Positions 24,751 to 39,699 of a stretch of DNA of 39,699 nt are shown in pieces. The stretch comes from Clostridia bacterium (GTDB lineage Bacteria > Bacillota > Clostridia > Oscillospirales > Acutalibacteraceae). The stretch lies in the NCBI GenBank assembly GCA_017474125.1, contig JAFVIF010000019.1, positions 1-39,699 of the forward strand. Direction: 5' to 3'. Both the position numbers and the translations under genes were made by a program. Under the pieces are notes generated by a model. That model did no database searches and was not told where the DNA came from. It saw nothing but the letters and a program-made list of their open reading frames with translations. Positions within the stretch are counted from its first letter, which is position 1; each line of letters begins with the position of its first letter.

Positions 24751-26450
24751 AACGGCAGGTCCTCGTCATCGTCGTCAAAATCGAAATTTCCCTCATCGGG
24801 TGTTTCGGCAAGATTAAAGCGGTTGCACCATTTAACAAAGGCCGCCTCAAGCCCTACAACGGTGCTAAGCCCCCCATTATTATAGCATCTTGCCTGTGCT
24901 ACAAAGCTTCCTGCAACCTCAATAGCCGCAACGGTTTTGCCGTTTTTAAGCACCGCAACTACGGGATAGCTTATAATTTCATAGCTTTCTTTAAGGCAGT
25001 TATTAAGCGCTTTTCCCACTTCCATATAATCGGTGCTCGTTTTAAGGAAACGAAACTTAAAGCCGTCAATAATACAATTATGTATACTTTTCGGCTGTTC
25101 CATAACGGGAATGGAATAATTTGGATAGGGCGTTATCACGTCAAAGCGAAAATGTGAGCCTATTTGTTCTTCTCCTTTGTTCCACTTTTTAATTTCGGCT
25201 AAGCGAGCATACTTTGACAAGCTTGAGTAATTAACGGCATAATTCAGCAGGCTGTAAAAATCAAAGTTTAAAAGCTTTATAAGCTTTTTTGCTTTACCCG
25301 CCTGCACGTAAGCCTTGAAGAAGGTAAGCACGGTCGGCCGTGTATGAATTTCTGTAAGTAAGCGGTATTTATTATTGCTTTTAAGCAGCTTTATAAATCT
25401 GTTAGGGTCGCCTATAATATGCCACAGTGCTTCGCATTCGCGAATATAAAACAGCATACCCTGCTCTTCAAAAAACAGTTTCCTTACCGATTTTATTTGA
25501 GGAAGCGAGGATGCCTCGTATAATTTCACGGCATTATCGGCTCGGTGTAATCCTTTAGCCGTTCTTTTAAAGCTTCCGTCAAGCTGAAGAGTGCCGATAT
25601 TATACGGAATAGCCGAATAAAAATCACCGTTATACCCTATAAATGCCGTAAGCATTCTCAGCTCATTTACCGTTATTTCTGACTGACAGAAAGGAATTTT
25701 TCCGCCATGCTCCGCGGCAAACATTTTTCTCAAATACCTTCGCACGTATTTGTATTTCAAAACAGTATCGTAAGCAACCCCCGAGCTCCAAGCCTTTTTG
25801 TCGTTCGTTACATCTCTTTTGGCAAGGCTTTTTCCGTCCCTATCCAAAAGCCTTATAAAGGTATGTCCGTTGCCGAAATTAAAGACAACCTCCTCGTAAA
25901 GCGGAAAATCAACCTTAACCTTTTCTCCCGATAACACAGGCAAGGAGAAAAGCTCGGAAATATCAAGAATTTCACAACGCAAATAAACCTTATGCTCACA
26001 TCGGGAAATGTCAACCCGCCGTTTTTTTGCCGACGGATGCATAATACCGTTGCATTTTGGGCAAACAAGCACAGAATCAACCTTCACCTTACGGCTTAAG
26101 GGCAAAAGAGCAGGGATTTCATCAAACAAATTCCGTTGCTGTGAAAGCCAACAGCAAACTGCCTCCTTCCCCTTCCTCTCGTCGTTATATATGTGAAAAT
26201 TAAAGCTTTTGTTAAAATCCTTAGCATAGGCATATATTTTATTGTTGCAGTACGGACAAGCAATATAATGAGAGGTTAGCTCTACACCGTTTTCGCAAAT
26301 AAGGGCGCTCGTATTTCTGAGCTGAGCCTTACCGCCAAGAATTTCAATAGCCTTTTGCTTTGATACCGTTCTTTTTTGTTCTTCAATTATGTAACCAAGC
26401 CGCAATTCAAGGCTGACAAGATTTTTGTTTTCCGCGTTATAGTTTTTCAT
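24747..26450 (-). CDS. PcfJ-like protein
   Basis: 567 residues. Two zinc-knuckle pairs in the N-terminal third (CPYC at 65-68 and CPKC near 130) and a C-terminal PcfJ-type domain (about 480-550): the A-L-x-x-C-L-x-x-S/Y segment, a strand pair with AVLKNGKTVAAIEV, QARCYNN and the final VKWCNRFNL helix. The tail is acidic (DFDDDDEDLPF). PcfJ was named on an enterococcal conjugative plasmid, and homologues are common on mobile elements and in Clostridia chromosomes; the function is unknown. It overlaps the upstream unknown gene by 14 bases, so the two are a unit. Confidence 0.8.
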   Translation of the reverse strand: MKNYNAENKNLVSLELRLGYIIEEQKRTVSKQKAIEILGGKAQLRNTSALICENGVELTSHYIACPYCNNKIYAYAKDFNKSFNFHIYNDERKGKEAVCCWLSQQRNLFDEIPALLPLSRKVKVDSVLVCPKCNGIMHPSAKKRRVDISRCEHKVYLRCEILDISELFSLPVLSGEKVKVDFPLYEEVVFNFGNGHTFIRLLDRDGKSLAKRDVTNDKKAWSSGVAYDTVLKYKYVRRYLRKMFAAEHGGKIPFCQSEITVNELRMLTAFIGYNGDFYSAIPYNIGTLQLDGSFKRTAKGLHRADNAVKLYEASSLPQIKSVRKLFFEEQGMLFYIRECEALWHIIGDPNRFIKLLKSNNKYRLLTEIHTRPTVLTFFKAYVQAGKAKKLIKLLNFDFYSLLNYAVNYSSLSKYARLAEIKKWNKGEEQIGSHFRFDVITPYPNYSIPVMEQPKSIHNCIIDGFKFRFLKTSTDYMEVGKALNNCLKESYEIISYPVVAVLKNGKTVAAIEVAGSFVAQARCYNNGGLSTVVGLEAAFVKWCNRFNLAETPDEGNFDFDDDDEDLPF

Positions 26451-27584: not shown

Positions 27585-28484
27585 TTACGGGTTACATTGC
27601 TTGCAGGGCTGGTAGCCGTTTGAAATCAGATTACTTCTTAAGGTTTTTACGGTTTTCTTATTTTGCGGTTTTATGCTCTTTACTCCACTGCAATCGGGCA
27701 AATGGAATTTGCCCGAGCTTATGTTAACAACGTATTCTCTTTTTTCGGTATCAGAGCTTACGTTATCAGCCTTTTCAAGTCGGCTTTCACCGGTACGGTA
27801 ATCAATAATAACACCGGGCTGTGCGTTATAGGCATATACGTTAAAGCAAATACCCTCACCGTTATCCTCTACCGAATACGCTTCAAGCTGTACTCCGCTT
27901 GCTAAAAGATTTTTGTCCTCAAAATATGGCGTAACCCTATACAAAACGTGATTGTCGGTTTCTTTAACGTAGTCGGCAATCATATTTTCAAAGGGGAGCA
28001 TCCCTTCAATATTAAGGTAGCGGGTGCCCGTTATCAAATTTCTTTCGTTGGCATTTTCACCCGTAAGCTGAAAGCCTATAAGGTGACAGCGATTATAAAG
28101 GTATTTACCGTCTACAATATCGTATTTAACGGTATGCCAGCCCGTGGGCTTAACACTTCCAATGCTTCCTCTATCCTCGGTAGGCATTATATCGGTACCC
28201 ACAACAGCAATAGCAACGGTACACCTGCCAAGGTAGTCAAGCCGTTCATATTTTTCGTAGGATTTTGTTTTTAGCTGTTGCTCGGTAAATACCGGCTGAT
28301 TGCCGTTGATGGCAACGAAGGGCGTTTTTCCGTCGAATTTTGGAACATCCTTAACAGAAGCTATAACGTTACCGTTTTGATTATCGGGCTGCGAGGGCGA
28401 CACCAAATCACCGCCGCAGGCAGACAGTAAAAGGGAGCAAATAAGTAAAAGTGACAACAAAGCCGCCGTTAATCTTTTATTCAT
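27585..28484 (-). CDS. DNA/RNA non-specific endonuclease lipoprotein with Ada-like zinc domain
   Basis: 299 residues. Lipobox LSAC (Cys23). The nuclease domain (about 45-235) carries NRCHLIGFQLTGENANERN (given as NRCHLIG and NANERNLITGTRYLN), the beta-beta-alpha-metal site of the EndA/NucA type, with His as general base and Asn as Mg ligand. The C-terminal 45 residues (KFHLPDCSGVKSI, then GYQPCKQCNP) match the Ada-type metal-binding fold with four cysteine/histidine-type ligands, a common C-terminal addition in secreted Firmicute nucleases. Membrane-anchored outside the cell. AGGAGG precedes the ATG, which overlaps the upstream stop (ATGA). Confidence 0.88.
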   Translation of the reverse strand: MNKRLTAALLSLLLICSLLLSACGGDLVSPSQPDNQNGNVIASVKDVPKFDGKTPFVAINGNQPVFTEQQLKTKSYEKYERLDYLGRCTVAIAVVGTDIMPTEDRGSIGSVKPTGWHTVKYDIVDGKYLYNRCHLIGFQLTGENANERNLITGTRYLNIEGMLPFENMIADYVKETDNHVLYRVTPYFEDKNLLASGVQLEAYSVEDNGEGICFNVYAYNAQPGVIIDYRTGESRLEKADNVSSDTEKREYVVNISSGKFHLPDCSGVKSIKPQNKKTVKTLRSNLISNGYQPCKQCNP

Positions 28485-28879
28485 TCGTAAACCTCCTCGG
28501 TAATTCTTTCGTGAGAATTTCCAACAAAATCACACCTGCTTTTTATAGTTTTTCCGTAAAAAACATCGGCATTTATCACCTTGTCACGGGGATAAGCTTT
28601 ATTCCAACGATAAACGATAAGCCTTGTGATTTTTCCTAAATATAAAAGAAAGCTGTCGTCCTCACAAAAGCAAAAATCCCCTGCTTCCGCCTTAGTCAAA
28701 AAATCATTATCAACCACTTTTAAATCGCTTTGGAATATTTTGGCAGAATATTCGTTCATAAAAAGCTTACCGCCTTTAGATAAATCGACTATTCGCTCAG
28801 AAACAACCCTATCGCGACTTTGTCGGCGGCCGTTAAATGCAATACCGTTTTTATCGTCAAGACAAATAATAACAGTCAT
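28481..28879 (-). CDS. Small conserved protein of unknown function
   Basis: 132 residues, soluble. It begins TVIICLDDKNGIAFNGRRQ and continues with RVVSERIVDLSKGGKLFMNEY. The N-terminal IICLDDKNGI is faintly like dihydrofolate reductase (V-D-x-N-x-G-I), but the rest is short and lacks the NADPH motifs, so I do not assign that. Similar proteins in Clostridia have been labelled 'ribonuclease Z' without metallo-beta-lactamase motifs; none (HxHxDH) are present here. It lies 6 bases after the HD-hydrolase gene and overlaps the nuclease gene by 4 bases, so it belongs to the same transcript. Confidence 0.7.
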   Translation of the reverse strand: MTVIICLDDKNGIAFNGRRQSRDRVVSERIVDLSKGGKLFMNEYSAKIFQSDLKVVDNDFLTKAEAGDFCFCEDDSFLLYLGKITRLIVYRWNKAYPRDKVINADVFYGKTIKSRCDFVGNSHERITEEVYE

Positions 28880-28885
28880 TAAGAA

Positions 28886-29314
28886 TTATCCCTCCAAGAG
28901 CTTTATAGCCTCTCTGTACTTTTCGGTTTTAGCAATATACCACTCGTTAATGGTGTCCATTCTGGTTACATCGCTGTTATGACGCAAATCGGCAAGCTTA
29001 ACCGCTCTGGCAATGGGGTTGGGTTTAATTCTTGCCACGTACTCAAGGTAAGGGGTATCATCGTTATGAGTTAAAAGGCGCAAGGCGTCAATTATTTCGC
29101 CGCCAAAGCCCATTTTAGTTAAATCCTCAAAGGTATAATCGGTATCCTCAATAACGTCGTGCAAAAGAGCAACGACGGTGGTCACTTCATCGGTCATTTG
29201 CTCGGCCAAATGAAAGGGATGAAATACGTATGGAATACCGCTTTTGTCAAGCTGGTCCTTATGGGCTTCAAAGCAAAGTTTTAAAGCGGCCTTTGTTTTA
29301 TCGGTATATATCAT
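28886..29314 (-). CDS. HD-domain protein, SpoT/Mesh1-like (small alarmone hydrolase candidate)
   Basis: 142 residues forming a single HD domain of the RelA/SpoT type: YVFHPFHLAEQM (His32), VVALLHDVIEDTDYTFEDL (His52-Asp53, Glu56-Asp57), FGGEIIDALRLLTH and VKLADLRHNSD (Asp109). The spacing and the LLHDVIEDT signature are those of the (p)ppGpp 3'-pyrophosphohydrolase domain, here without synthetase, TGS or ACT domains. The reaction is likely removal of a 3'-pyrophosphate or phosphate from a guanosine or related nucleotide; the true substrate is unproven. It follows the Rossmann-RyR gene by 14 bases. Confidence 0.85.
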   Translation of the reverse strand: MIYTDKTKAALKLCFEAHKDQLDKSGIPYVFHPFHLAEQMTDEVTTVVALLHDVIEDTDYTFEDLTKMGFGGEIIDALRLLTHNDDTPYLEYVARIKPNPIARAVKLADLRHNSDVTRMDTINEWYIAKTEKYREAIKLLEG

Positions 29315-29328
29315 AGTTTAATTCTCCT

Positions 29329-30693
29329 TTAATCGTCGTCCTTTTCCTGCTCTTGCAACGGAAGCTCACCGAATGGCACGAGACAGTTATGAAGCTTTTT
29401 GGCATCGTTTCTGCTGCTTTTCAAAAGCGAGCCGCTATAGGAATACCCTTCACTTCTCACAAAAGCATTCCAACGGCGGTGCTCAAGAATTCGTATACTC
29501 ATCAGCTCCGCCTCATTTCGCTCCTTTGAAGGCTTATCGGCGCCCAAAATACCGCAAAGCAGTCTCGCTTTTTTGTGAATGGTCGATGCTAACGAGGAAT
29601 TATAGCAATACCTGTTAAGGTAAAATTCCTTTTCTTCTCCCCATTTAAGGTGGCGGGATAAAGCAAGGGCTTCTAATTCGCAATCGGTTATTGCACTTTC
29701 ACAAAATACCGAAGGTATATCACCTATACATTCTGTTTTTGAATCATTTTCAAAAGAATATTTATAAGGCAAGCCCTCAGCCGCGACCACAACCGAAGGA
29801 CTACAGCCGTTTTCCTTTAACTGACTATAAAGCCTTTCGGCCTCGGTTAGGTTTTCCGTACAATTGCCTGCGGAAACGAAAAGAAAGGTGGTTTTGGGCA
29901 GTGTCGGTAAAAGGTCTTTAAAATCGGATAACAGATGAATATTAATCTTATACCTTGCTTCGCCCTCTATATCGTACCTGCCGTTAAGCTGCTCCGACAT
30001 AAGCTCAGGGCAAAGAGAAATAAAATCCTCCCTTGCCTTTTGCGAATCGGAAAATACGTCAAGCTGTAATCTGTAGCCGTCCATTTGACAATACCAGCTC
30101 AGTGCCTTAAGCATTTCCGTGCCAAAGCTATTTAAGCCTAAAATAACGGCATTTATTTCTTTAACGCTACCGTTAACCGCCTTTTTAAAAATAAGCTCAT
30201 AGCCCTTTTCATAAAGAAGCTGATATATGGGAAGTCTTACTAAATCAATCAGGCGGATACTGTTTTTTTCATCCTTCTCAGAAGAAAGACTTTTCGTAAT
30301 AGCCTCATAGTTTTTTTCGTTATCATAAAAACCGAATAACGTTGCATTTTCAAAGCTTGACAGCTTTTCTTTTAAGCTGCGCAGAATATCGGCATTATCT
30401 TCGGTGTCCTTATTAAGTGCAAAAACAAAAAGCCGAGTTTTATTATTAATTTCATTAAAGTCAAAATTACGAATATCGCAGGTTAAAAATTCGGTATTGG
30501 CCTTTTCGGTATTTTTAATAAGCTCTTCGGGAACGTTAAAGAACACAAAGGCTCTTCCCTGCTTTTTATCAAGGCTGTCGGCTAAAGCTATTGAGTTTTC
30601 ATTATAACTTGAAAAAAGGTATACCTCACGGAAAGAACCGCAAATAAGCTCGGCATTCCCGGTTATGTTTTTTAAAAGCGAGGTTAATTCCAT
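29329..30693 (-). CDS. Rossmann-fold (TrkA-N-like) protein with C-terminal RyR domain
   Basis: 454 residues, soluble. Residues 20-135 form one Rossmann-like unit (VYLFSSYNENSIALA, RAFVFFNV). Residues 180-310 form a second with INAVILGLNSFGTEMLKAL, a TrkA-N-type glycine loop, and TFLFVSAGNCTENL. Residues 398-446 carry an RyR domain: LEHRRWNAFVRSEGYSYSG, then KKLHNCLVPFGELP. RyR domains in bacteria are proposed ligand-binding modules in nucleotide-centred conflict systems. GGAGG is 5 bases before the ATG. A strong hairpin separates it from the AAA gene upstream, but no new promoter is obvious. A sensor role is inferred. Confidence 0.75.
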   Translation of the reverse strand: MELTSLLKNITGNAELICGSFREVYLFSSYNENSIALADSLDKKQGRAFVFFNVPEELIKNTEKANTEFLTCDIRNFDFNEINNKTRLFVFALNKDTEDNADILRSLKEKLSSFENATLFGFYDNEKNYEAITKSLSSEKDEKNSIRLIDLVRLPIYQLLYEKGYELIFKKAVNGSVKEINAVILGLNSFGTEMLKALSWYCQMDGYRLQLDVFSDSQKAREDFISLCPELMSEQLNGRYDIEGEARYKINIHLLSDFKDLLPTLPKTTFLFVSAGNCTENLTEAERLYSQLKENGCSPSVVVAAEGLPYKYSFENDSKTECIGDIPSVFCESAITDCELEALALSRHLKWGEEKEFYLNRYCYNSSLASTIHKKARLLCGILGADKPSKERNEAELMSIRILEHRRWNAFVRSEGYSYSGSLLKSSRNDAKKLHNCLVPFGELPLQEQEKDDD

Positions 30694-30723
30694 AGCTTCC
30701 TCCGAAAAAATGATTTATAGAAC

Positions 30724-30753
30724 GCAAGCGTGCCGCAACTACGGCACGCTTGC
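30724..30753 (-). other. Strong hairpin between the CbxX-type and RyR genes
   Basis: GCAAGCGTGCCG (30724-30735) and CGGCACGCTTGC (30742-30753) form a perfect 12-base-pair GC-rich stem with a 6-base loop. On the minus strand it is followed by GTTCTATAAATC and only later by a T-run, so it is not a classical terminator. It could be a weak terminator, an mRNA stabiliser or a processing site that sets different levels for the genes on either side. Confidence 0.6.
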
Positions 30754-30766
30754 CAATAGGTTAAAC

Positions 30767-32764
30767 TCAAATGAAGCCTAAAGAACTCTTTTTAGGCTTG
30801 CTCATAAGCTTTTTAAATTCCTGATCGCAAACGGCAAGGTTAAAGTCTTCCTTTATAAGCACGGTAGGCTCCTCTTTATTAAGCTGAGCGCGACGGAAAG
30901 CCTTTCCGTAAGTTCTCTCAAAAATATTACGAACAAATCTTGCGTTGCTGAAATCCTTTGCATTAATAACCTCATCGGGCAGATTTTCAAAATAAGCCTT
31001 TGCAGTTTCCTCAAAGCCTTCCTTATAGGTGAAGGACTTATTCACCATACGCATATAAATTTCAAAAAGTTGATTTTTGGTATAATTAGGAAACTCGATT
31101 ACATATGGCATACGGCTTTCAAGACCGGGATTTGCTCCCATAAGCTCCTTCATTTCTTTCGGATAACCTGCCATTATAACCACAAGGTCAGAACGGTGAT
31201 TTTCCATTTCGGCAATTAATGCCTCAATAGCCTCTCTGCCGAAATCCTTTCCTCCCATATCATCGCTATACAAGGAATACGCCTCATCAATAAACAGCAC
31301 CGAGCCGTAAGCATCACGACAAATTGCCGCTGTCTGAGGTGCAGTATGTCCAACGTATTTACCGCACAAATCACGTCCCATGTATTCGAAAAAGCTACCG
31401 TTCCTTAATACACCCTTTTCCTTAAGAATTTTACCGATAATTCTTGCAACGGTGGTTTTACCCGTACCGGGGTTACCCACGAAACGCATATGAATACAAG
31501 GTGAACCAAGCTCTTTTAAACAACGGCTGATTTCTATTTGACCTATAATTTCTTCAATGCGCTCCTTTATAGGCTGCATACCTACCATTGTATCAAGAAA
31601 ATCAATACCTGCTATTTCTTCCATATTCAAGGTCGGCGCTATTTCAACAATATCATTTTTATTAACGTCAACACTATCGATTCCCTTTGCCGAATCGTTA
31701 AGCTGCTTGTGGTAAATTATATCGTTTACAATCTTTTCAACGGTATTCAGCCCGTAGAATCTTCCGTCGTTCTTCTCGGCGTTAACCCTTGCTTCAAATA
31801 CCTCCCAAGCTTCATCACTCATACTAAAACCGAATTTTTCAATCAAAGAGCTTGCATACGCTTTAAGCTCGGAGTAATCAAACGGAATAAACGAAAGACT
31901 TTGTACCTGAAGTACGTCGTTTAAGGCAGAGCTGATATCGTCTACAACCTCCTTATCAACAAAAGGAATACGGAAGATGTAAACGGCCTTTTCTGTATAA
32001 TTATCAAGAGTATAAAGGAAGTCTCTGAATTTAACGTCATAAACCTTAGACATCCATTCACACATATCTATGATAATTACGCCCGACGTATTCTTATTGG
32101 TTATTTCTTCTAGTGCATCATAAACGAAAGCAAATGGACTTTTACCTATTTCCTTTGCCATTTCTTCACTTAAAAGCTTGGTTTCACGCAATATTTTTTT
32201 ATTGGAGCCGGGCAAAAGTTCATTTTCAATAAGCAGCTCCGTAAACAATCTGGCATAGGTGCTTGCTCCGTCACCGTTGTTAATAGCGAAAAGATAATCG
32301 CGTGAAATCAAGGCTTTCTCGGTATTGTGTTTTTTTAAGCTCGGTGCAATCCGAACTATTTCATCGGCAAGATTTTTAAATTCCTCAACACCTATAAGAG
32401 CCTTTATTTTATCGGCAACCGTACCGCTTTTTTTAGCAGCTTCGTTTTCCGACTTTGCCGAAGACTCCGCTTTTTCTTCCACCTTTTCTTCGGGATTATA
32501 ATCGGTTACCTCACAATTAAATACCTTTCTGTCAAAATCCATACCGAAGGCTTCGTCAATAATCTCGTTAACACAGTCAAAGAGTTCATTTTCATTTACT
32601 TCGCAGTCGCGAATAAGCAGTTCGCAAACCGTAAACGAAGAATACAAAACCTCTGCCTTCAAATACTCTTCTGCATATTTAATAAATTTTTCAACGGGAA
32701 GCTGATCGCTTCCCTTATTACTTAATACCCATTTTCCATCGAACGATACGGTTATCTTTTTCAT
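30767..32764 (-). CDS. CbxX/CfqX-type AAA+ ATPase with degenerate N-terminal AAA domain
   Basis: 665 residues. An N-terminal domain (1-120) and acidic/basic linker precede a first AAA-like domain (about 140-375) whose Walker A is lost (INNGDGAS) but whose Walker B remains (GVIIIDMCEW). The second AAA domain (about 385-640) is complete: GNPGTGKTT near 430, the pore-type FFEYMGRDLCGKYVGHT, Walker B VLFIDEAYSLY and sensor residues up to GLESRMP. The EAYSLY and GLxSR motifs are those of the CbxX/CfqX group (rubisco activase CbbX, SpoVK, type VII EccA). Such ATPases remodel a partner protein. AGGAG is 8 bases before the start. Confidence 0.88.
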   Translation of the reverse strand: MKKITVSFDGKWVLSNKGSDQLPVEKFIKYAEEYLKAEVLYSSFTVCELLIRDCEVNENELFDCVNEIIDEAFGMDFDRKVFNCEVTDYNPEEKVEEKAESSAKSENEAAKKSGTVADKIKALIGVEEFKNLADEIVRIAPSLKKHNTEKALISRDYLFAINNGDGASTYARLFTELLIENELLPGSNKKILRETKLLSEEMAKEIGKSPFAFVYDALEEITNKNTSGVIIIDMCEWMSKVYDVKFRDFLYTLDNYTEKAVYIFRIPFVDKEVVDDISSALNDVLQVQSLSFIPFDYSELKAYASSLIEKFGFSMSDEAWEVFEARVNAEKNDGRFYGLNTVEKIVNDIIYHKQLNDSAKGIDSVDVNKNDIVEIAPTLNMEEIAGIDFLDTMVGMQPIKERIEEIIGQIEISRCLKELGSPCIHMRFVGNPGTGKTTVARIIGKILKEKGVLRNGSFFEYMGRDLCGKYVGHTAPQTAAICRDAYGSVLFIDEAYSLYSDDMGGKDFGREAIEALIAEMENHRSDLVVIMAGYPKEMKELMGANPGLESRMPYVIEFPNYTKNQLFEIYMRMVNKSFTYKEGFEETAKAYFENLPDEVINAKDFSNARFVRNIFERTYGKAFRRAQLNKEEPTVLIKEDFNLAVCDQEFKKLMSKPKKSSLGFI

Positions 32765-32775
32765 TACGCAGACTC

Positions 32776-33072
32776 CTATCTGGACAATTTTCCATCCTCA
32801 GAAATTAAACGCATCTCCGCTTCAAGTTCATTCGCATTTATTTCCTGCAATTTTTCATCATCAATAATTTTATAAACAAATTTTTGCAGATTTGCCTCTC
32901 TGCCGATTTTTGTAAGCTCATCATATACCGTTTGAAAAGCACACACCTTTTCAAAGCACTGTGAACAAGAGCAAATATGTCCGTTAACCTTAGAAGCCAA
33001 TCTAACGGTACTTTCGTTTTCCTCCTCAAAGGATACAAATGCTATAATTTCGTCAACTGTCAGATGTTTCAT
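32776..33072 (-). CDS. Soluble zinc-binding anti-sigma-like protein
   Basis: 98 residues, no membrane segment. HLTVDEIIAFVS resembles the opening of zinc-finger anti-sigma factors, and His32-x3-Cys36-x2-Cys39 in GHICSCSQCFEKV is the ZAS motif; a helical tail follows. It overlaps the sigma-like gene by 20 bases. The gene order sigma then anti-sigma and the ZAS motif together support a regulator that holds the adjacent sigma factor inactive, possibly released by redox or by the CbxX-type ATPase downstream. This role is inferred; the protein is too short for a firm family call. Confidence 0.65.
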   Translation of the reverse strand: MKHLTVDEIIAFVSFEEENESTVRLASKVNGHICSCSQCFEKVCAFQTVYDELTKIGREANLQKFVYKIIDDEKLQEINANELEAEMRLISEDGKLSR

Positions 33073-33871
33073 TGTGCTTTTCCTCTTTTGCTATTAAATC
33101 ATTCATTCGGTTTACCCAGTCGCTTACCGAAGCCTTTCCGCCCTTCTTCATAAAGAAGTCGCCATACCTTTTTTCGCCCATTCGTTTCCCGTCCGAGCAA
33201 ATTTTGTTAAGGCTCATTTCAACCTTTGCAAACTGTTTATCGTTAAACCTTAACCACGGCACGTTACAGGACATATCAAGAATAGAACGCAGCATTTCGT
33301 CAAGGCTCATATTTTCAAATGTGTTCACCAAAATTTCGTTTGATTCAATTTTAGTAACGTTTGTATTCGCAATTATAAGCATTTGCGCCATCCAGGTCAA
33401 AACCTTATAAACCTTCGAATCGGATTTTAGCACTATTAAGAAGGCATTGCTCAAACGGTTTAAAGCGGAATAAGAAGTAAAAACCTCGGGCTGATGGCTC
33501 GGTAGGTTGGTTAAATCTGCGTCCTCCGCTTCCATAAACTGAATACGCCGTTGCTTTTTCGCAAAATCGTTTTTAACGTTTACAGCAACGGTGAAAAGCC
33601 AGTTTTTAAACCCATTCGGGTCATAATTTTCCTTATCGTTGCGCTTAAAAAATCCGGTAACGCACACCTTCATTAAGCGCGCACGAATATCCTGCATTAA
33701 ATCCTCTTCAAATTGCCTGTTTTTTAACGCCGAGTCGTTGTTGCACCATTTTTTAACAGGGCCTTTAAGAACTCTTTCGGCAATTATCATCAGTGTGTCA
33801 ACGCAAGAACCGTTAGAATTAATTATCTCATGAAACATTTTATCGAATTCATCATGAGTAAAATACTGCAT
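33053..33871 (-). CDS. Divergent sigma-70 family (ECF-like) RNA polymerase sigma factor
   Basis: 272 residues. Residues 52-115 match sigma region 2: FEEDLMQDIRARLMKV, then FKNWLFTVAVNVKNDFAKKQRR, with the W-L-x-x-V-x-x-N pattern and basic end of region 2.3/2.4. The C-terminal part is longer than in normal ECF factors, and I cannot see a clear region 4 helix-turn-helix, although a helical segment near 165-195 (VLTWMAQMLIIA) could replace it. It is translationally coupled to the anti-sigma-like gene. AGGAGA lies 7 bases before the ATG. The divergence makes the assignment moderate; a region-2-only regulator is the main alternative. Confidence 0.65.
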   Translation of the reverse strand: MQYFTHDEFDKMFHEIINSNGSCVDTLMIIAERVLKGPVKKWCNNDSALKNRQFEEDLMQDIRARLMKVCVTGFFKRNDKENYDPNGFKNWLFTVAVNVKNDFAKKQRRIQFMEAEDADLTNLPSHQPEVFTSYSALNRLSNAFLIVLKSDSKVYKVLTWMAQMLIIANTNVTKIESNEILVNTFENMSLDEMLRSILDMSCNVPWLRFNDKQFAKVEMSLNKICSDGKRMGEKRYGDFFMKKGGKASVSDWVNRMNDLIAKEEKHNETSDS

Positions 33872-33882
33872 AAGCTTGTCTC

Positions 33883-35163
33883 CTAAAATTCAATCATTTG
33901 TGCTCTGGTGCCTTTACCTGTAAGGGATCTAAGCATTTCGGCAAACTTTGAATCATCATCGATTTTGTGAACGCCGCGCAAAATGCTGATATCCATATCA
34001 ACTGCACGCTGAGACAAAGCCTCCTTTGTTTTATCGCTAAGACTGCCCAAATCGGTAGCAATCAAAACCTTTTTAACATATTTTCCGCCAAAACGGGAAG
34101 CAACAGCGTCAAGCTTATAAAGCTCCTCCTCTTCAAACTTTCCGTTTTTGCAGGAAATAAAAACAGGCACAAGCCCCTTCATCAGCACAACGTCAATTTC
34201 ATTTTCAGTATCGGCCTTTTCGTCCCTTGCACCGTGAAAAGCACCGTCCCAATCAATAAATACACCGCTGAGCGCATCGTTATAATAAGGCTTGCCGTTT
34301 TCATCTTTTAATTCTGCAGCCGTTACAAGTACCTTAAGCTCAAGCATGGCACCCGCCGTTTTAATGCATTTTGCCGTAAGACCGTCCTTATAGCTGAAGC
34401 TGATAACACTTCCCTTATGGGAATACTCACTTATAACGTCATTTTCAAAAAGCAATTTAAGTAAGGGCTTTACGTCAACGTATTTTGTTGTAAAGCCTTC
34501 AAATTTAGCCTCTACCTCCGCAAGGTCAACCGATATGGAAAGCGGCTCATTATCAGAAGCATAATTATTAAGATAAGCAAGAACTGCGCTTTGGTTATTC
34601 CATTTTTGGGGGTCCTTGCGTGCAATTTCCCAAAGAAATTTAACGGTTTTTACAAAATCATCAGTCAATTCCCAGCGTACGGTTTTAACCATTTCGTCCT
34701 TTTTATATCTTACCGCACCACCGTGTATTAAAATGTGATCGTCAACCGATAATAAGGGAGCGCCGCTGTATATAACTCTTTGGTCGTTATCGCAGTCGGT
34801 AACAACACCGTTTTCAATTATAAAACGTTGAAGCTGAATATCCTTATGACTGTATTTTTCGTAAACGATACCCATAGCCACAAGAGCCAAATCCTCGCCG
34901 CCGGTAAGGTCAAAAACGCAGGAGTCCTCTTTTTCAACAATATCCGACAGCGTTTCGACTATACTGCTAAGGTCATTCTTTTTAATACTTTTAAAATCAA
35001 TGGTAATTCCGAGCTTTTTATCTTCTATGTAAGCCTTATGAGCGTTAAAAAAACGTTTGGCCGCCTTTCCCTCACCCACAAAAATTATTTTGTCGGGTGC
35101 TGTCGTAAGGGTACTTATTACGTTTTCAATTGGCGCACGGTCGCAAAACTCTATAGCGGTCAA
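33883..35163 (-). CDS. CARF-domain PD-(D/E)xK nuclease, Card1/Can2 (DUF1887) type
   Basis: 426 residues. A CARF-like Rossmann domain (about 25-135) includes KIIFVGEG and VFDLTGGEDLALVAMG (85-98). A winged-helix-like linker follows (165-260), then a restriction-endonuclease fold (268-371) with LELKVL (Glu275), NEIDVVL (Asp324) and FISCKNG (Lys339), and SRFGGKYVKKVLIAT. This order is that of Card1/Can2 proteins, which are switched on by cyclic tetra-adenylate and cut single-stranded nucleic acids. The start is TTG at 35163: GGAGG is 8 bases upstream, an in-frame TGA lies two codons before, and no ATG fits. No type III CRISPR gene is in the window. Confidence 0.8.
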   Translation of the reverse strand: MTAIEFCDRAPIENVISTLTTAPDKIIFVGEGKAAKRFFNAHKAYIEDKKLGITIDFKSIKKNDLSSIVETLSDIVEKEDSCVFDLTGGEDLALVAMGIVYEKYSHKDIQLQRFIIENGVVTDCDNDQRVIYSGAPLLSVDDHILIHGGAVRYKKDEMVKTVRWELTDDFVKTVKFLWEIARKDPQKWNNQSAVLAYLNNYASDNEPLSISVDLAEVEAKFEGFTTKYVDVKPLLKLLFENDVISEYSHKGSVISFSYKDGLTAKCIKTAGAMLELKVLVTAAELKDENGKPYYNDALSGVFIDWDGAFHGARDEKADTENEIDVVLMKGLVPVFISCKNGKFEEEELYKLDAVASRFGGKYVKKVLIATDLGSLSDKTKEALSQRAVDMDISILRGVHKIDDDSKFAEMLRSLTGKGTRAQMIEF

Positions 35164-35199
35164 GCCTCATTCCTCCAAACTAAAACCTGTGAAGGCATA

Positions 35200-36672
35200 T
35201 TAAGTAAAGGGACACTCCTTGGTACCTTCAACAACAGCGGCGGCAAATTCCTTTACGGGGAATATGCTGACGCTGGGCAAATCAAATTCTTTCAAGGGAA
35301 CGGTTTCGTAACCCTTAAAGCATTCGTACATGTCAATATCGGCCATCTCGGTTATAATAGGATACTGACGAGAATGCATTATAAGTGCTTCGCCCTTTTC
35401 CTTATCAAAACGCTGAAGCTCCGAAATAGAAATAAGCTTTCTCGTTCTGTTATCAGAAGTGGTTGTTTCACCGCAAAGACTGCTTATTTCGTTAAGAAGG
35501 TCTAATTCCTTAGAGGTAAGGAATACCCAGTTATCACAGTTACCCTTAATCGTATCGGCATCCTCGCCGTATTTTCCGCGAAGCTGATGCATACTTTGAG
35601 CAATAAGATAATATCGCATATTTCTGCTTCGTGCCGCCGATATCATTGACGGCATATCGGGGATTTTGGGCATATTGCAGAACTCATCAAGAAGAAAGTT
35701 TACTCTTACGGGCAGAGTGAAATTATCCTCCTTCTGAGCTTCACTTATAAGCACCTCGTAAGCCTGCTTTATAAAGGTTGTAACCAAGAAGTGATAGGTA
35801 GTTTTTTCATCGGGCACAATTACGTAAACGGCAGTTTTTTCTCTGCCTATTTTACGCATATCAACGGTATTTCCCGAAAGCATTTTTGTAAGCTTTTCCT
35901 GTGTGTTGAAAATACGAAGCATACTGTAAAGAGAAATATAAATACTTCTTTTCGTGTTTTCTGCGCCTACAAATACACCTCGGTAGTTCATACCCGCAAT
36001 AGTATCCTCGCGCATTCTTTGTGAAAGGAAGGTAAGCGGTCTTTCGTTTTCAAAAGCGCACATTTGCGCAAGGCTTGCAACGTTAACCTCATCCTTTTTG
36101 CCTGCCTCCATAAGAAGCATAAGGTTAGCAAGAGCAAAGGAAGCCGCCATTTCAACCCAAAACACGTCCTTTGTGCTTTGGCGCTGAGGCTCGGAAACGG
36201 TTGAAATAAAGTCGTTAAGCATCGAAATGCCCATTTCCTTATCTCCCGAATGATACAATTCATAAGGAAGGAAAAGAGGATTCCACATATTGCCGCGGCC
36301 AATATCTCTGAAATTAAGAACGATAGTATTATAGCCCTTCGACTTTACAAGGCCCGAGGTTTTTGCATAAAGCTCGCCTTTAGGGTCAGACACAATAAAT
36401 GACTCCCCCGCTTTAGCAAACATATTTATCATAGGCATACAGAAAAGGCGGGTTTTTTTAGAGCCTGTTGCACCGAAAATAAGGGTATGGGTGTCCTTAT
36501 CGTCAACGTAAGCCTCTCTGCCGTTAGAAAGCAACGGCAGACCGGCAGACGGATAGTCCTCACTGCTGAGGTTAATATATCTGCTTGAAGCCTTTATTTC
36601 GTCAACGGTTGCCCAGCGTGCTTCCTGATTTGTAGATATATAACGTCCGAATTTGTAATTTTCCTTACTCAT
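35200..36672 (-). CDS. VirD4/TraG-like ATPase without membrane segments
   Basis: 490 residues. Walker A is GATGSKKTR (67-75), where Lys72 replaces the last Gly of the usual GxxxxGK[ST]; SDPKGELYAKTSG (near 95) and Walker B NFLLDEFCNMPKI (near 325) are the TraG/VirD4 coupling-protein motifs, with a sensor-like YLIAQSMHQLRGKYG. True coupling proteins begin with membrane helices; this one starts directly with the RWATVDEIK segment that follows them in the family. No relaxase or other type IV secretion gene is nearby. It begins 3 bases after the first AAA gene. Probably a DNA- or protein-translocating motor; the role is unknown. Confidence 0.82.
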   Translation of the reverse strand: MSKENYKFGRYISTNQEARWATVDEIKASSRYINLSSEDYPSAGLPLLSNGREAYVDDKDTHTLIFGATGSKKTRLFCMPMINMFAKAGESFIVSDPKGELYAKTSGLVKSKGYNTIVLNFRDIGRGNMWNPLFLPYELYHSGDKEMGISMLNDFISTVSEPQRQSTKDVFWVEMAASFALANLMLLMEAGKKDEVNVASLAQMCAFENERPLTFLSQRMREDTIAGMNYRGVFVGAENTKRSIYISLYSMLRIFNTQEKLTKMLSGNTVDMRKIGREKTAVYVIVPDEKTTYHFLVTTFIKQAYEVLISEAQKEDNFTLPVRVNFLLDEFCNMPKIPDMPSMISAARSRNMRYYLIAQSMHQLRGKYGEDADTIKGNCDNWVFLTSKELDLLNEISSLCGETTTSDNRTRKLISISELQRFDKEKGEALIMHSRQYPIITEMADIDMYECFKGYETVPLKEFDLPSVSIFPVKEFAAAVVEGTKECPFT

Positions 36673-36675
36673 TTT

Positions 36676-37539
36676 TTACCTCTTACTTTCAAAGCCTATT
36701 TGTCGTACCTTTTCAATATTGGCTATCATACGGTTAACGTATTCGCTGTCTGCTGAAAAATCCGCAAGAGCTTCGGCGGTAAGCACAAAGGAGTCCACCG
36801 ATTTGTTCGAAAAGGTTTTATAAACTATATCCTGACATAAAAGCTTAATAGTTTTAAAGCCGTCGAAATGCTTATTTTTTCTTAAGCGTTCTATAGTTTC
36901 GAAAAGTACGGCTTTACCGCCCTCATCAAGGGCAAGTCCGTAATCGTGGAGGTTTTTTTCAATATACTCGAAAAGATTTGCTGTTTTGGGAAGAGAAAGA
37001 GCCACTCTTTCAATTCTTAAGTACATTGATAAAAATGCATTCAAATTATGAAGCTTTGTTTTGTTTTCGGAATATACCGACAGCACAACGAGCCACTTAT
37101 CACTATGAGCAGATAAGTATTCCATAAAGGTTACGAAATGCTTTTCTTCATAATGGTCAAGCCATTCGTTAATATCAATATGAATAATACCCTTAAACTC
37201 ACTTCTGAAGCCTGCGGCATTATTAACCTCGTCAATCAGGCGCTGAAGCTCGCTGAATTGATCCCGTGGACTGCAATATCCGAGCAGGAACTCAAAAAAC
37301 TTAACGTCGCCGTAAAATTCCATAAGGTTACCCTGCTGTGCAAGATACTCGGAAATTAAATTAAGAAGCACTGTTTTTCCGACACCCGACTTTGCTATCC
37401 ACAGCATATCGGGTAAAAGCACGGGAGCATCAATAGGACGGGTTGTGATATTAGCCGATAATACATCCCAACGCTTAACGATTTTTTTAACCTCATCGGC
37501 TTCCTTTATTTCCATAATTCGATCGTAAAACTGATTCAT
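36676..37539 (-). CDS. AAA/STAND-like P-loop ATPase
   Basis: 287 residues. Walker A is AKSGVGKT (49-56) and Walker B is GIIHIDINEW (near 120), followed by strand segments WLVVLSVYSENK and an IERVALSLP sensor-like region, with a helical C-terminus. The I-I-x-I-D-x-x-E-W Walker B and downstream layout resemble the degenerate first AAA domain of the CbxX-type protein downstream. The frame opens at 37557, but GAGGAG covers those codons and lies 6 bases before ATG 37539, which I take as the start. It is the first gene after a consensus promoter. Confidence 0.78.
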   Translation of the reverse strand: MNQFYDRIMEIKEADEVKKIVKRWDVLSANITTRPIDAPVLLPDMLWIAKSGVGKTVLLNLISEYLAQQGNLMEFYGDVKFFEFLLGYCSPRDQFSELQRLIDEVNNAAGFRSEFKGIIHIDINEWLDHYEEKHFVTFMEYLSAHSDKWLVVLSVYSENKTKLHNLNAFLSMYLRIERVALSLPKTANLFEYIEKNLHDYGLALDEGGKAVLFETIERLRKNKHFDGFKTIKLLCQDIVYKTFSNKSVDSFVLTAEALADFSADSEYVNRMIANIEKVRQIGFESKR

Positions 37540-37597
37540 TTGCAACTCCTCGTTCAATATAAATCGGCAAAAAGATACACTTTCGCTTATAAAAAAT

Positions 37598-37626
37598 ATT
37601 ATACTATTTAACTAACTCATTGTCAA
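37598..37626 (-). promoter_or_regulatory. Consensus promoter of the CARF-sigma-AAA operon
   Basis: TTGACA (37626-37621), exactly 17 bases, TATAAT (37603-37598): both boxes are perfect. It should be read by the housekeeping sigma factor, so the operon is not solely dependent on its own sigma. The leader to the first gene is about 50 bases. Confidence 0.92.
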
Positions 37627-37668: not shown

Positions 37669-37710
37669 AAAAAAGAAAGCAGAGTTTTTAAAAACTCTGC
37701 TTTCTTTTTT
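37669..37710 (-). terminator. Terminator after the small lipoprotein gene
   Basis: A 42-base perfect palindrome centred at 37689/37690: AAAAAAGAAAGCAGAG...CTCTGCTTTCTTTTTT, with TTTTTAAAAA at its centre. It touches the stop codon of the lipoprotein gene and insulates it from the operon promoter 43 bases further on. Confidence 0.92.
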
Positions 37711-38044
37711 ATTTCACTTTTTCAAGCGTAATGGAACCATCGGAATCGGTCAGAATAAGGGAATTGCCCTTAAATTCGTAATCATATTCCTCGGTATTTT
37801 CAATGCCGAAGGTAGTAATGGTTAAACACAGCTTGTCGTTTTCAAATTTATAGGTAAATGCAACGTCAAGCACAGTTGAAACCTTTCCTGTTCCATCCTC
37901 GTTGAAGGTATATGAGGTTTCGGTAACAACACCCAAAACCGTAGTTTGGTATTTCCAGGTACCTATTATTGACTTTTCGGCTGAGCAAGCGCAAACGCCG
38001 AACACAATAAGCACGCTTAAAAAAATTGCGAGAAACTTTTTCAT
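37709..38044 (-). CDS. Small lipoprotein with lipocalin-like (DUF5640-type) domain
   Basis: 111 residues. Signal peptide with lipobox VCAC (Cys20), then a compact beta-rich domain: IIGTWKYQTTVLGVVTETSY, TFNEDGTGKV, FEFENDK-like FENDKLCLTIT and GNSLILTDSDGSITLEKV. The G-T-W, E-D-G-T-G and final I-T-L-x-K pattern is that of DUF5640/lipocalin-like lipoproteins common in gut Clostridia. The open frame extends to 38107, but AAGGGG precedes ATG 38044 and only that start gives a signal peptide at the N-terminus. It lies 16 bases after the broken transglutaminase. The ligand is unknown. Confidence 0.82.
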   Translation of the reverse strand: MKKFLAIFLSVLIVFGVCACSAEKSIIGTWKYQTTVLGVVTETSYTFNEDGTGKVSTVLDVAFTYKFENDKLCLTITTFGIENTEEYDYEFKGNSLILTDSDGSITLEKVK

Positions 38045-38060
38045 ACAAACGCCCCTTTTT

Positions 38061-38699
38061 TTATTTGTATTTAAACTTAACCGTGATAGTAAATAAATTT
38101 TTATCATAGGAGTAGAAATAGGAATCGGTAATTATTTTCCTATCCAGCTTTGCCGCAGCCTTAAGAATGTCGTAGCTATCCTGTCCCGATACGCAAATTT
38201 CGGCCAACACCTTATCATACAAAGGCTTATTTTTACACTTAAAGGTAAAGGATTTACATTTAGCTTCTACCGCCGCGCGAGCTATTACTTTAAGCTGATT
38301 TAAATCATATTCAGCAATAACTGCAGAATTATGATAATAATAATTTCCTTTGGTGGCTTCGCATATGGGAAGGTCGGTGGGAACATACTCTGTATCACGC
38401 GTACGGGTAAGCTCCTCGGTGGTTATACAGAAATAATCAAAGCCAAAGCCGGTATTTTTAACCGCCTGTATAGTATTAGAGCTATCATCCCGGGTGGTGT
38501 CAAGATAATAATAATCACCGTCGACCTTAATAATGTTCCAAGCGTGAGTGCCGTCGCGCTCACCGCTTTCCTTGATTACGTTTCCGACAACCTCTGCGCT
38601 TTCTATTCCGCATTTTTGCAGTAAATAGGCCATTGCTCTGGCATAGCCCTCGCAAACGGCTTTACGGTTAAGGAATACGCCGCAGATTGTTCTATGATT
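38061..38699 (-). pseudogene. Transglutaminase-like protein, 5'-truncated
   Basis: The open frame from 38699 encodes CGVFLNRKAVCEGYARAM, which holds the catalytic Cys of the transglutaminase-like core, then the His segment GTHAWNII and the Asp of YYYLDTTRDD. A TAG at 38702-38700 interrupts the frame just before it, and the first ATG in frame (38633) lies after the catalytic Cys. No ATG, GTG or TTG precedes the Cys within the open stretch. The N-terminal domain, signal peptide and start of normal members are missing, with only a hairpin and the neighbouring gene upstream. Most likely a decayed surface protein gene; use of ATG 38633 would give an inactive 190-residue product. Confidence 0.8.
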
Positions 38700-38796: not shown

Positions 38797-39276
38797 TTAT
38801 TCGTTTTCTATAAAATCAGCAACAGATAATTTGCCTTCGTTGATATCATAAAACTTATCGTTGTACTTATCAACGGTATAGCAAGAACAGCCAATCAAAT
38901 AATCAATCAGGCCTTCGCCTATAAGACTTCCGATAAAGGAAACCGTCATTGAAAATCTAATTGTTCCGTCCGACATATCATAATCGAAATTACCGTCAAC
39001 CATACCGAAGTTAGCGGCACCGGTTGCTATAGCACCGTCAACACGTTTATCCTCATTCATTTTAAAGGGAAGAACAGAATCAAGACGAACAAGCTGTCTG
39101 TCTACGTCAACGCTGATAAAGGTATGTAAAGGTATGTTTTCTTCGCTACCTTTAATTCCGAAAAAAACAAAAAGCTTATCCTCTTCTTTGTTATAATTTA
39201 AGCCCTTTGCGTCAAGTGAATCACAAATTGTTTTATATACGTTAACCGCATTATAAAGTTTTTTATCATCAGTCAT
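38797..39276 (-). CDS. YbjN-like protein
   Basis: 159 residues, cytosolic. The alpha/beta layout with KGLNYNKEEDKLFVFFGIKG, ISVDVDRQLVRLDSVLPFKM, a DGAIATGAANFGMVDGNFDYDMSDGTI segment (shown in parts: ANFGMVDGNFDYD, GTIRFSM) and a helical C-terminus is that of the YbjN/type III secretion chaperone-like fold. These proteins are thought to help other proteins fold or assemble; the partner is unknown. The C-terminal half is clearly paralogous to the next gene (SFIGSLIGEGLIDYLIGCSC against SYIESIIGEELIEYMIDCSC). GGGG/AAGGGG-type sequence precedes the ATG. Confidence 0.78.
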   Translation of the reverse strand: MTDDKKLYNAVNVYKTICDSLDAKGLNYNKEEDKLFVFFGIKGSEENIPLHTFISVDVDRQLVRLDSVLPFKMNEDKRVDGAIATGAANFGMVDGNFDYDMSDGTIRFSMTVSFIGSLIGEGLIDYLIGCSCYTVDKYNDKFYDINEGKLSVADFIENE

Positions 39277-39291
39277 TTTATTATCCCCCTT

Positions 39292-39699
39292 TTACTTACC
39301 GATAGACTGAACAAACTGTTCAAGAGTAATAAGTCCGGATGAAAGACCCATAAGCTTTTCATTAAACTCATCTACAGTAGAGCAAGAGCAATCAATCATA
39401 TACTCAATTAATTCTTCGCCTATAATGCTTTCAATATAGCTGTTGGTCATACGGAAGTGCATTCTTCCGTTTTTAATATCAAAATCAAAGCAGCCGTCAA
39501 CAATTACGTTATTAATAATGCTTACGGCAACAGCCATTTCAACGGCCTTTTCCTTTTTAATGTTCATAGATAAAACCGAGAACAGCAAAAGTACACCGCG
39601 TTCAGCGTCAACATTGAATACAAATTCCATAGGCAGATCATCGCCGTTAACACCATATCTAACCGTAAACTGACTGTCATCGCGCTGGAATCTCCAGCC
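39292..39699 (-). CDS. YbjN-like protein, paralogue (5' end outside window)
   Basis: At least 135 residues; the frame is open to the window edge (WRFQRDDSQFTVRYG) and so starts outside. It has the same elements as the preceding YbjN-like gene: FVFNVDAERGVLLLFSVLS, a VDGCFDFDIKNGRMHFRM strand pair, the IGEELIEYMIDCSCSTVDEF helix and a final TLEQFVQS. Tandem duplication, with the pair 15 bases apart and on one transcript. The internal ATG at 39630 is not the true start. Confidence 0.78.
   Translation of the reverse strand, partial: GWRFQRDDSQFTVRYGVNGDDLPMEFVFNVDAERGVLLLFSVLSMNIKKEKAVEMAVAVSIINNVIVDGCFDFDIKNGRMHFRMTNSYIESIIGEELIEYMIDCSCSTVDEFNEKLMGLSSGLITLEQFVQSIGK

Follow-up and report, generated by a model that had tools for sequence, protein, structure and literature searches.

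What brings together, in a single run of genes, a CARF nuclease, a RyR-domain protein, motor-type ATPases, a sigma-like protein with a putative anti-sigma partner, and an alarmone-hydrolase-like protein? The question is raised by the minus strand of a 39,699-nucleotide stretch of DNA (here called the window; NCBI GenBank assembly GCA_017474125.1, contig JAFVIF010000019.1, positions 1 to 39,699) from a Clostridia bacterium of the family Acutalibacteraceae. The window lies on contig C8 of a 2.0-Mb genome (G000; 79 contigs; 86% complete). An earlier note, made from the letters of the window, had described ten of its genes as an operon and proposed a CRISPR-independent conflict or stress system in which a nucleotide signal activates the nuclease. 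We put at about even the chance that the locus is a chromosomal, CRISPR-independent, modular, nucleotide-signalled stress or immune operon of a gut Clostridium, and from the evidence below we infer a role in defence.

Operon organization

The ten minus-strand genes, named A to J in order of transcription (37557 to 27585), were all confirmed at the reported coordinates. Their arrangement shows a single operon with a conserved core. The features discussed below are as follows.

Promoter, 37598 to 37626, minus strand: TTGACA-N17-TATAAT, 12/12 consensus match, upstream of A
A, 36676 to 37539, minus strand: AAA-like protein of 287 amino acids (aa), homologous to the N-terminal AAA half of F
B, 35200 to 36672, minus strand: VirD4/TraG-like ATPase with the P-loop GATGSKKT (Pfam T4SS-DNA_transf, 5e-44)
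C, 33883 to 35163, minus strand: CARF-PD-(D/E)xK nuclease, Can2/Card1-like
D, 33053 to 33871, minus strand: diverged sigma-like protein, with sigma region 2 by profile and fold
E, 32776 to 33072, minus strand: small ZAS-type putative anti-sigma protein, by motif only (Hx3Cx2C at residue 32)
F, 30767 to 32764, minus strand: CbxX/SpoVK-like double AAA protein, Walker A and B intact in the C-terminal half
Hairpin between F and G, 30724 to 30753, minus strand: 12-bp stem (30753-30742/30735-30724), found by eye from the sequence with no folding tool
G, 29329 to 30693, minus strand: Rossmann-RyR protein, in which the N-terminal part of its relatives is absent
H, 28886 to 29314, minus strand: small alarmone-hydrolase-like HD protein (Pfam HD_4, 2e-6, over cut-off)
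YbjN-like protein 1, 38797 to 39276, minus strand: aligned family
YbjN-like protein 2, 39292 to 39699, minus strand: same family, running to the end of the window

The single consensus promoter that had been proposed was borne out: one perfect promoter was found in a 15.2-kb region, versus 0.017 expected under a first-order Markov model. A 12/12 promoter also heads A in two related loci, L121 and L122 (0 of 300 shuffles as good in each). The most likely start of A is ATG 37539 rather than TTG 37557, because a good ribosome site lies ahead of it and because of the start positions in relatives. Gaps measure 3 bases for A-B, 36 for B-C, 11 for C-D, -20 for D-E, and 11 for E-F; the tight packing described previously thus holds from A to F (-20 to 36), and the hairpin at 30753 splits F from G (73 bases). 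Because of where the hairpin lies, genes G to J may be uncoupled in part from A to F, and the hairpin itself is a possible attenuator. Farther downstream, the coordinates give gaps of 14 bases for G-H and 6 for H-I and an overlap of 4 for I-J.

In a single-sequence Pfam scan, the VirD4-like, CbxX, HD_4, and NS endonuclease (2e-21) matches were over the cut-off and the rest were below it, while E and I had no match. The domain labels given in the earlier note were recovered by different routes, i.e., the first four by Pfam, the CARF, RyR, and sigma region 2 labels via profiles, PADLOC, or fold, and ZAS as a motif only. The membership of the operon also had to be revised. Genes I and J had no relatives in the loci searched and were dropped as parts of the system; two YbjN-like genes (38797 to 39699), which belong to the recurring set described below, had been omitted.

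The CARF nuclease and its CRISPR context

C has a CARF domain followed by a PD-(D/E)xK domain with the E, D, and K residues, the arrangement of Can2 and Card1. It was identified by PADLOC as CARF4--CARF_PDDEXK (2e-24), and its profile matched the solved structures of VC1899 (3e-10) and Can2 (2e-8); the Pfam Card1_endonuc match (6e-4) was below the cut-off. The catalytic residues predicted by homology (E322, D324, and K339) are invariant in 21 sequences, and the first two correspond to Can2 E276 and D278 (PMC7969007). Identity to the L121 protein is 48%. A nuclease under nucleotide control, as proposed earlier, is plausible on these grounds.

C resembles the type III CRISPR nucleases Can2 and Card1 (VC1899 fold) in domain order, in a full-length match, and in the E-x-D and K residues. 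Those nucleases are encoded with Cas10, whereas no Cas10 over the cut-off was found in the window genome (an 86% complete assembly), and the operon neighbours of C are RyR, AAA, VirD4-like, and sigma-like genes. The only contact of the Csm1 model in G000 is with an HD stretch (positions 7 to 105; 31 bits versus a cut-off of 170). Since no Cas10 passed the cut-off, the window copy looks CRISPR-independent. The search for Cas10 and SMODS covered 31 genomes: G107 and 30 of the family's 50 CARF-positive members. Three of these 30 carry Cas10, namely G045, which passed the Csm1 cut-off; G024, from which the Cmr2 query was taken; and G288. As a sign of CBASS, the SMODS clade of CD-NTases was looked for; no SMODS cyclase passed the cut-off in G000, and one was present in 2 of the 31 genomes.

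Elsewhere, the same nuclease family does meet CRISPR genes. In L043 (856 to 9350), a type III-B cmr operon is followed directly by the CARF nuclease and a CRISPR-like repeat array, and cmr4 to cmr6 lie upstream of a CARF relative in L130. Given these cmr neighbours, the ligand of the CARF domain may be a cyclic oligonucleotide after all, and CRISPR independence, previously proposed for the system as such, appears to hold for the window copy and does not hold for the family as a whole. The two loci, together with the incompleteness of the assembly, count in favor of the view that the genes are an orphan type III accessory set, working in trans with a Cas10 that the assembly lacks. We consider this very improbable, given that Cas10 occurs in only 3 of the 30 CARF-positive genomes and is not over the cut-off in G000.

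Some relatives encode a TIR protein close to RyR or CARF, as judged by Pfam in L121 and L108, by a four-TIR profile in L120 and L144, and by eye in L247 and L251. The Pfam scan detected no TIR among the ten genes, the rest of the genome not having been searched for TIR.

Related loci and the recurring gene set

We compiled the CARF loci from the best 80 of 350 CARF relatives in a scan of GTDB species genomes, with genes called by our own open reading frame script, and counted as a partner any gene of the set that lies no more than 8 kb from CARF and on its strand. At least one partner was present in 42 of the 80 loci; of the 38 without one, 22 end inside 8 kb. RyR was the most frequent (32 loci; 28 with long and 15 with short forms), followed by ClpA-FtsH (23; counted only if at least 900 aa), YbjN-like (13), VirD4-like (8), ZAS (8), long sigma-like (7), A-like (4), CbxX (1), and HD (0) genes. 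Excluded from this recount were a 334-aa AAA gene in L134 as a ClpA-FtsH fusion, a 188-aa ECF (extracytoplasmic function) sigma of ordinary length in L139 as a D gene, and a DUF5640 gene alone in L151. One genome contributed both L127 and L128, two contigs whose CARF genes are identical, and L132 and L135 are close. In the unusual ClpA-FtsH fusion (e.g., L033, 3226 to 6594), a middle region joins a ClpA-like AAA domain to an FtsH AAA domain with an M41 peptidase; the protein travels with CARF and RyR.

Several loci come close to the window in gene order. L121, from a roe deer Clostridia metagenome-assembled genome (MAG), reads A-B-(XRE-like)-C-F-G, followed by a TIR-kinase; L122 reads A-B-C-G; and L196, from a Roseburia MAG (Lachnospiraceae), reads A-B-277 aa-sigma-like-ZAS-RyR-CARF, with weak sigma-like and ZAS calls. 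In L158, L152, and L110, genes for a VirD4-like protein of another branch (26% for L152 and L158), a small protein, a sigma-like protein, and a ZAS protein accompany CARF or CbxX. The named relatives are mostly MAGs of Oscillospiraceae and other Clostridia. The earlier note had proposed conserved co-occurrence as a check; parts of the set do recur in other genomes, and no second copy of the complete set of ten genes was found.

Of 398 genomes from the family of the window, 50 had CARF relatives, 8 had sigma matches (several weak), and 21 had A-like genes (six close). The close A-B pair occurred in 6 genomes, spread over six genera. All 6 of these had CARF, versus 44 of the 392 others (p 3e-6); a long RyR was present in 5 of 5 (G290 left out) versus 5 of 69 (p 2e-5), and a sigma match in 3 of 6 versus 5 of 392 (p 1e-4). 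In G148, G190, G222, and G240, which have the close pair, CARF, long RyR, and A-B are on different contigs. The RyR-CARF link was weaker genome-wide (10 of 30 CARF-positive versus 5 of 43 CARF-negative genomes; p 0.04), in a comparison that comprised 30 of the 50 CARF-positive genomes, G107 (no CARF match), and 43 CARF-negative genomes.

A tree of 81 CARF proteins places the window together with L118 to L125, L121 and L122 among them, in a supported nine-member clade. Partner states change repeatedly on this tree (RyR, 24 changes; ClpA-FtsH, 19; YbjN, 11; VirD4, 9; sigma, 7; A, 5), as scored from earlier, more generous partner counts that included L134, L139, and L151. Joint change of RyR with other partners on the tree was not significant by the median of paired tests. 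A single long locus on contig C47 of G107 (L253 and L108) encodes RyR, a 1,760-aa protein, vWA-like, ZAS, sigma-like, TIR, YbjN-like, CbxX, and ClpA-FtsH proteins and no CARF; by its gene content, it is the same chassis with a TIR replacing the nuclease. Taken as a whole, the loci show a shared, recombining toolkit of CARF nuclease, RyR, CbxX-family AAA, VirD4-like, sigma-like/ZAS, and YbjN-like proteins, with ClpA-FtsH and TIR elsewhere.

These distributions bear on a second explanation, in which the operon serves a general stress or cell-envelope response: the sigma pair, AAA proteins, YbjN-like proteins, and alarmone hydrolase would deal with stress on proteins or nucleotides, with the CARF nuclease as a growth-arrest device. 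The sigma-like/ZAS pair, the FtsH-type protease of relatives, SpoVK/CbxX, and the (p)ppApp-type hydrolase are stress-type proteins, and it is consistent with such a role that viral_contigs contained no relatives of A or CARF and the plasmid and phage collections none of CARF. The occurrence of TIR, TIR-kinase, and type III CRISPR genes next to relatives argues against it, as do the patchy spread (CARF in 50 and close A-B in 6 of the 398 genomes) and the repeated gain and loss. We regard this explanation as unlikely, if still a serious contender.

Motor-type proteins

A is related to residues 117 to 356 of F by profile A9 (E 9e-25 in a one-sequence search and 1e-21 in the genome search), and its Pfam KAP_NTPase match (0.02) is below the cut-off. 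Its Walker A motif is intact in the window and degenerate in several relatives; identities are 62% (L121), 59% (L122), and 35% (L196). F was matched by NCBIfam SpoVK (1e-74) and CbbX (4e-63), each below that family's cut-off, and by Pfam AAA (3e-17), over the cut-off; it is 47% identical to the L121 protein.

B belongs by sequence to the VirD4 coupling-protein ATPases, being over the cut-off of the conjugal NCBIfam family CD1115 (3e-88). Its identities are 78% (L121), 73% (L122), and 53% (L196). B shares the ATPase fold with the VirD4/TraG CD1115 coupling proteins and differs from them in its altered P-loop, in a match that starts inside the profiles (position 14 or 38; a hydrophobic N terminus was not visible by eye), and in its fixed pairing with A.

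The CD1115 match raises a third explanation, that the locus is cargo or a remnant of an integrative conjugative element, with B as the coupling protein and the rest as passenger DNA. ClpP/TepA-like genes are common in such elements, and genes that we labelled as such by eye stand beside VirD4-like genes in L105, L107, L130, and L179 (and beside A-like genes in the first three). A gene at 24747 to 26450, presumably PcfJ-like, points the same way. Conversely, A and B form a tight pair, with CARF as the next of the parts, in the window, L121, and L122; the unusual GSKK[ST] P-loop of B is retained in the close alignment rows; and no relaxase or mating-pore gene was detected in twenty Pfam-scanned proteins, a scan that left out the window's first 18 kb. 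On this balance, a conjugative origin seems improbable to us.

The sigma-like/ZAS pair

In D, the Pfam match to sigma region 2 (0.006) was below the cut-off for the single sequence; profile comparison and fold support an ECF-type region 2. No Pfam match to region 4 was found, and two-domain sigma chains align with residues 2 to 269 of D, but with a root mean square deviation of 13 to 20. In E, residues H32, C36, and C39 are invariant in 4 aligned sequences, and E-type genes pair with D-type genes in other loci too.

The earlier suggestion that the sigma pair controls a regulon fared unevenly: the pair recurs with CARF, and the promoter that heads the operon is of the housekeeping type. Upstream regions, including those of genomes with dispersed genes, were read by eye (32 regions) or scored for a sigma-A match (14 regions). 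A 12/12 match was present in 4 of the 14, i.e., ahead of A in the window, L121, and L122 and ahead of RyR in G190 (0 of 300 shuffles in each); the others comprised one 11/12 match (G240 sigma), four 10/12 matches (equalled by 13 to 36 of 300 shuffles), and five of 9 or fewer. The upstream regions did not support a shared alternative-sigma promoter for the A, CARF, RyR, sigma, and HD genes.

The RyR and HD proteins

G matched the RyR domain of the ryanodine receptor by profile (6e-11; Pfam RyR, 0.03, below the cut-off) and is 39% identical to the L121 protein. In addition to this homology to the domain (PF02026), it has the ligand-type residues H405, W408, H435, and D452. The H, W, H, and D of phage RyDEP handle cyclic ADP-ribose signals, according to PMC13232231. 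The residues of G were matched to them via the bacterial RyR protein chain 4n05, whose spacing (3, 22, 17) equals that reported for RyDEP; G aligns with a five-residue insertion, and RyDEP itself was outside the alignment. The H..W-H-D pattern was present in 40 of 46 long RyR proteins versus 3 of 20 short ones. Because these residues are kept and TIR proteins occur near RyR or CARF, our best guess is an ADP-ribose-type ligand for G. Stand-alone RyR proteins of about 93 to 136 aa occur alongside long RyR in L132, L135, L138, L150, L160, L174, and others, most of them with the first H..W and without the second H.

H is a stand-alone HD protein with an HDxxED motif, and its best solved relative is the (p)ppApp hydrolase 7smg (E 5e-30; residues 8 to 140), a near full-length match that places it among the small alarmone hydrolases. 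It had been proposed to remove the signal of the system. Homologues (E below 1e-24) are common (36 of 250 family genomes), and in the 8 of these that are CARF positive, H lies near CARF in only 2 (G000 and G064). An HD gene directly follows CARF in L047, the sole other locus seen with HD in a CARF gene run. We therefore rejected H as an integral part and demoted it to an accessory.

Neighboring genes

The YbjN label derives from a sub-cut-off Pfam match of one relative (0.046). A DUF5640 lipoprotein-like gene lies at 37709 to 38107; in L144 and L151, such a gene lies between a transglutaminase-like gene and CARF. The window has only the last ~210 residues of this 1,731- to 1,737-aa transglutaminase-like protein (38061 to 38693; 62% to L151), and L151 and L144 have the complete gene, placed ahead of DUF5640 and CARF. 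The PcfJ-like protein mentioned above (567 aa) has no Pfam match, and its homologues (E 1.7e-93) are encoded directly upstream of CARF in L127 and L128.

Comparison with known systems

The Calp system (CalpL/CalpT/CalpS) is a type III system with cA4-controlled sigma release (PMC11417357). It resembles the window in that the gene for a second-messenger receptor is accompanied by genes for a sigma factor and an anti-sigma factor, which in the window are a sigma-like and a putative anti-sigma protein; it differs in that no SAVED-Lon protease is present among the ten genes, where the receptor is a nuclease, and in that D exceeds the length of an ECF sigma and has no region 4 by sequence. Phage RyDEP uses its RyR domain as a cyclic ADP-ribose hydrolase or sponge against Thoeris signals (PMC13232231). 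G has the same ligand residues, and some relatives have a TIR near RyR or CARF; unlike RyDEP, G is host encoded and fused to Rossmann-like domains, and the ten genes include no TIR. The MoxR-vWA and FtsH ternary conflict systems (PMC7159879) are likewise AAA-chaperone centered and modular with exchangeable parts, whereas their AAA families are others and the sensors here are CARF and RyR. A term search of that paper returned no VirD4, sigma, YbjN, or CbxX.

In agreement with the earlier note, which knew of no such system, a literature search by title or abstract yielded no paper describing this gene set, which is not proof of absence. Burroughs 2015 reportedly treats bacterial RyR domains, and part of the CARF-RyR link may be in print there. 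Modular nucleotide-signalled systems are a known kind, and this combination was not met in our search. The earlier interpretation is partly supported, holding in outline for A to G and the upstream YbjN-like genes.

Proposed mechanism and implications

For A to G and the upstream YbjN-like genes, with H as an accessory, immunity is the likeliest function that we infer. An infection or stress cue would lead to a nucleotide signal made by an enzyme not found in the operon. A cyclic nucleotide would bind the CARF domain and turn on the PD-(D/E)xK nuclease, and the resulting DNA or RNA damage would stop growth or the phage. The RyR protein would sense or destroy a cyclic-ADP-ribose-type signal. 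A, the VirD4-like B, and F could form complexes, driven by nucleoside triphosphates, that gate the system, with the YbjN-like proteins as chaperones. The ZAS protein might hold the sigma-like protein until the alarm, upon which a gene set would be transcribed, as in Calp, and the HD protein may clear a (p)ppApp-type alarmone.

We also advance, tentatively and as somewhat less than probable, a more specific proposal: that the locus represents an undescribed CRISPR-independent immune family of gut Clostridia, which would use a cyclic oligonucleotide via CARF and a cyclic-ADP-ribose-type signal via RyR simultaneously. A CbxX/VirD4-like ATPase gate and a sigma/ZAS transcriptional arm would complete a common chassis bearing exchangeable effectors (CARF nuclease or TIR). 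If this is true, CARF nucleases would be freed from their CRISPR context. It would also give a signalling role to a host-encoded RyR protein, while cleavage of cyclic ADP-ribose signals has been shown for phage RyR proteins (PMC13232231), and it would link nucleotide signalling with a CbxX/VirD4-like motor and a sigma switch.

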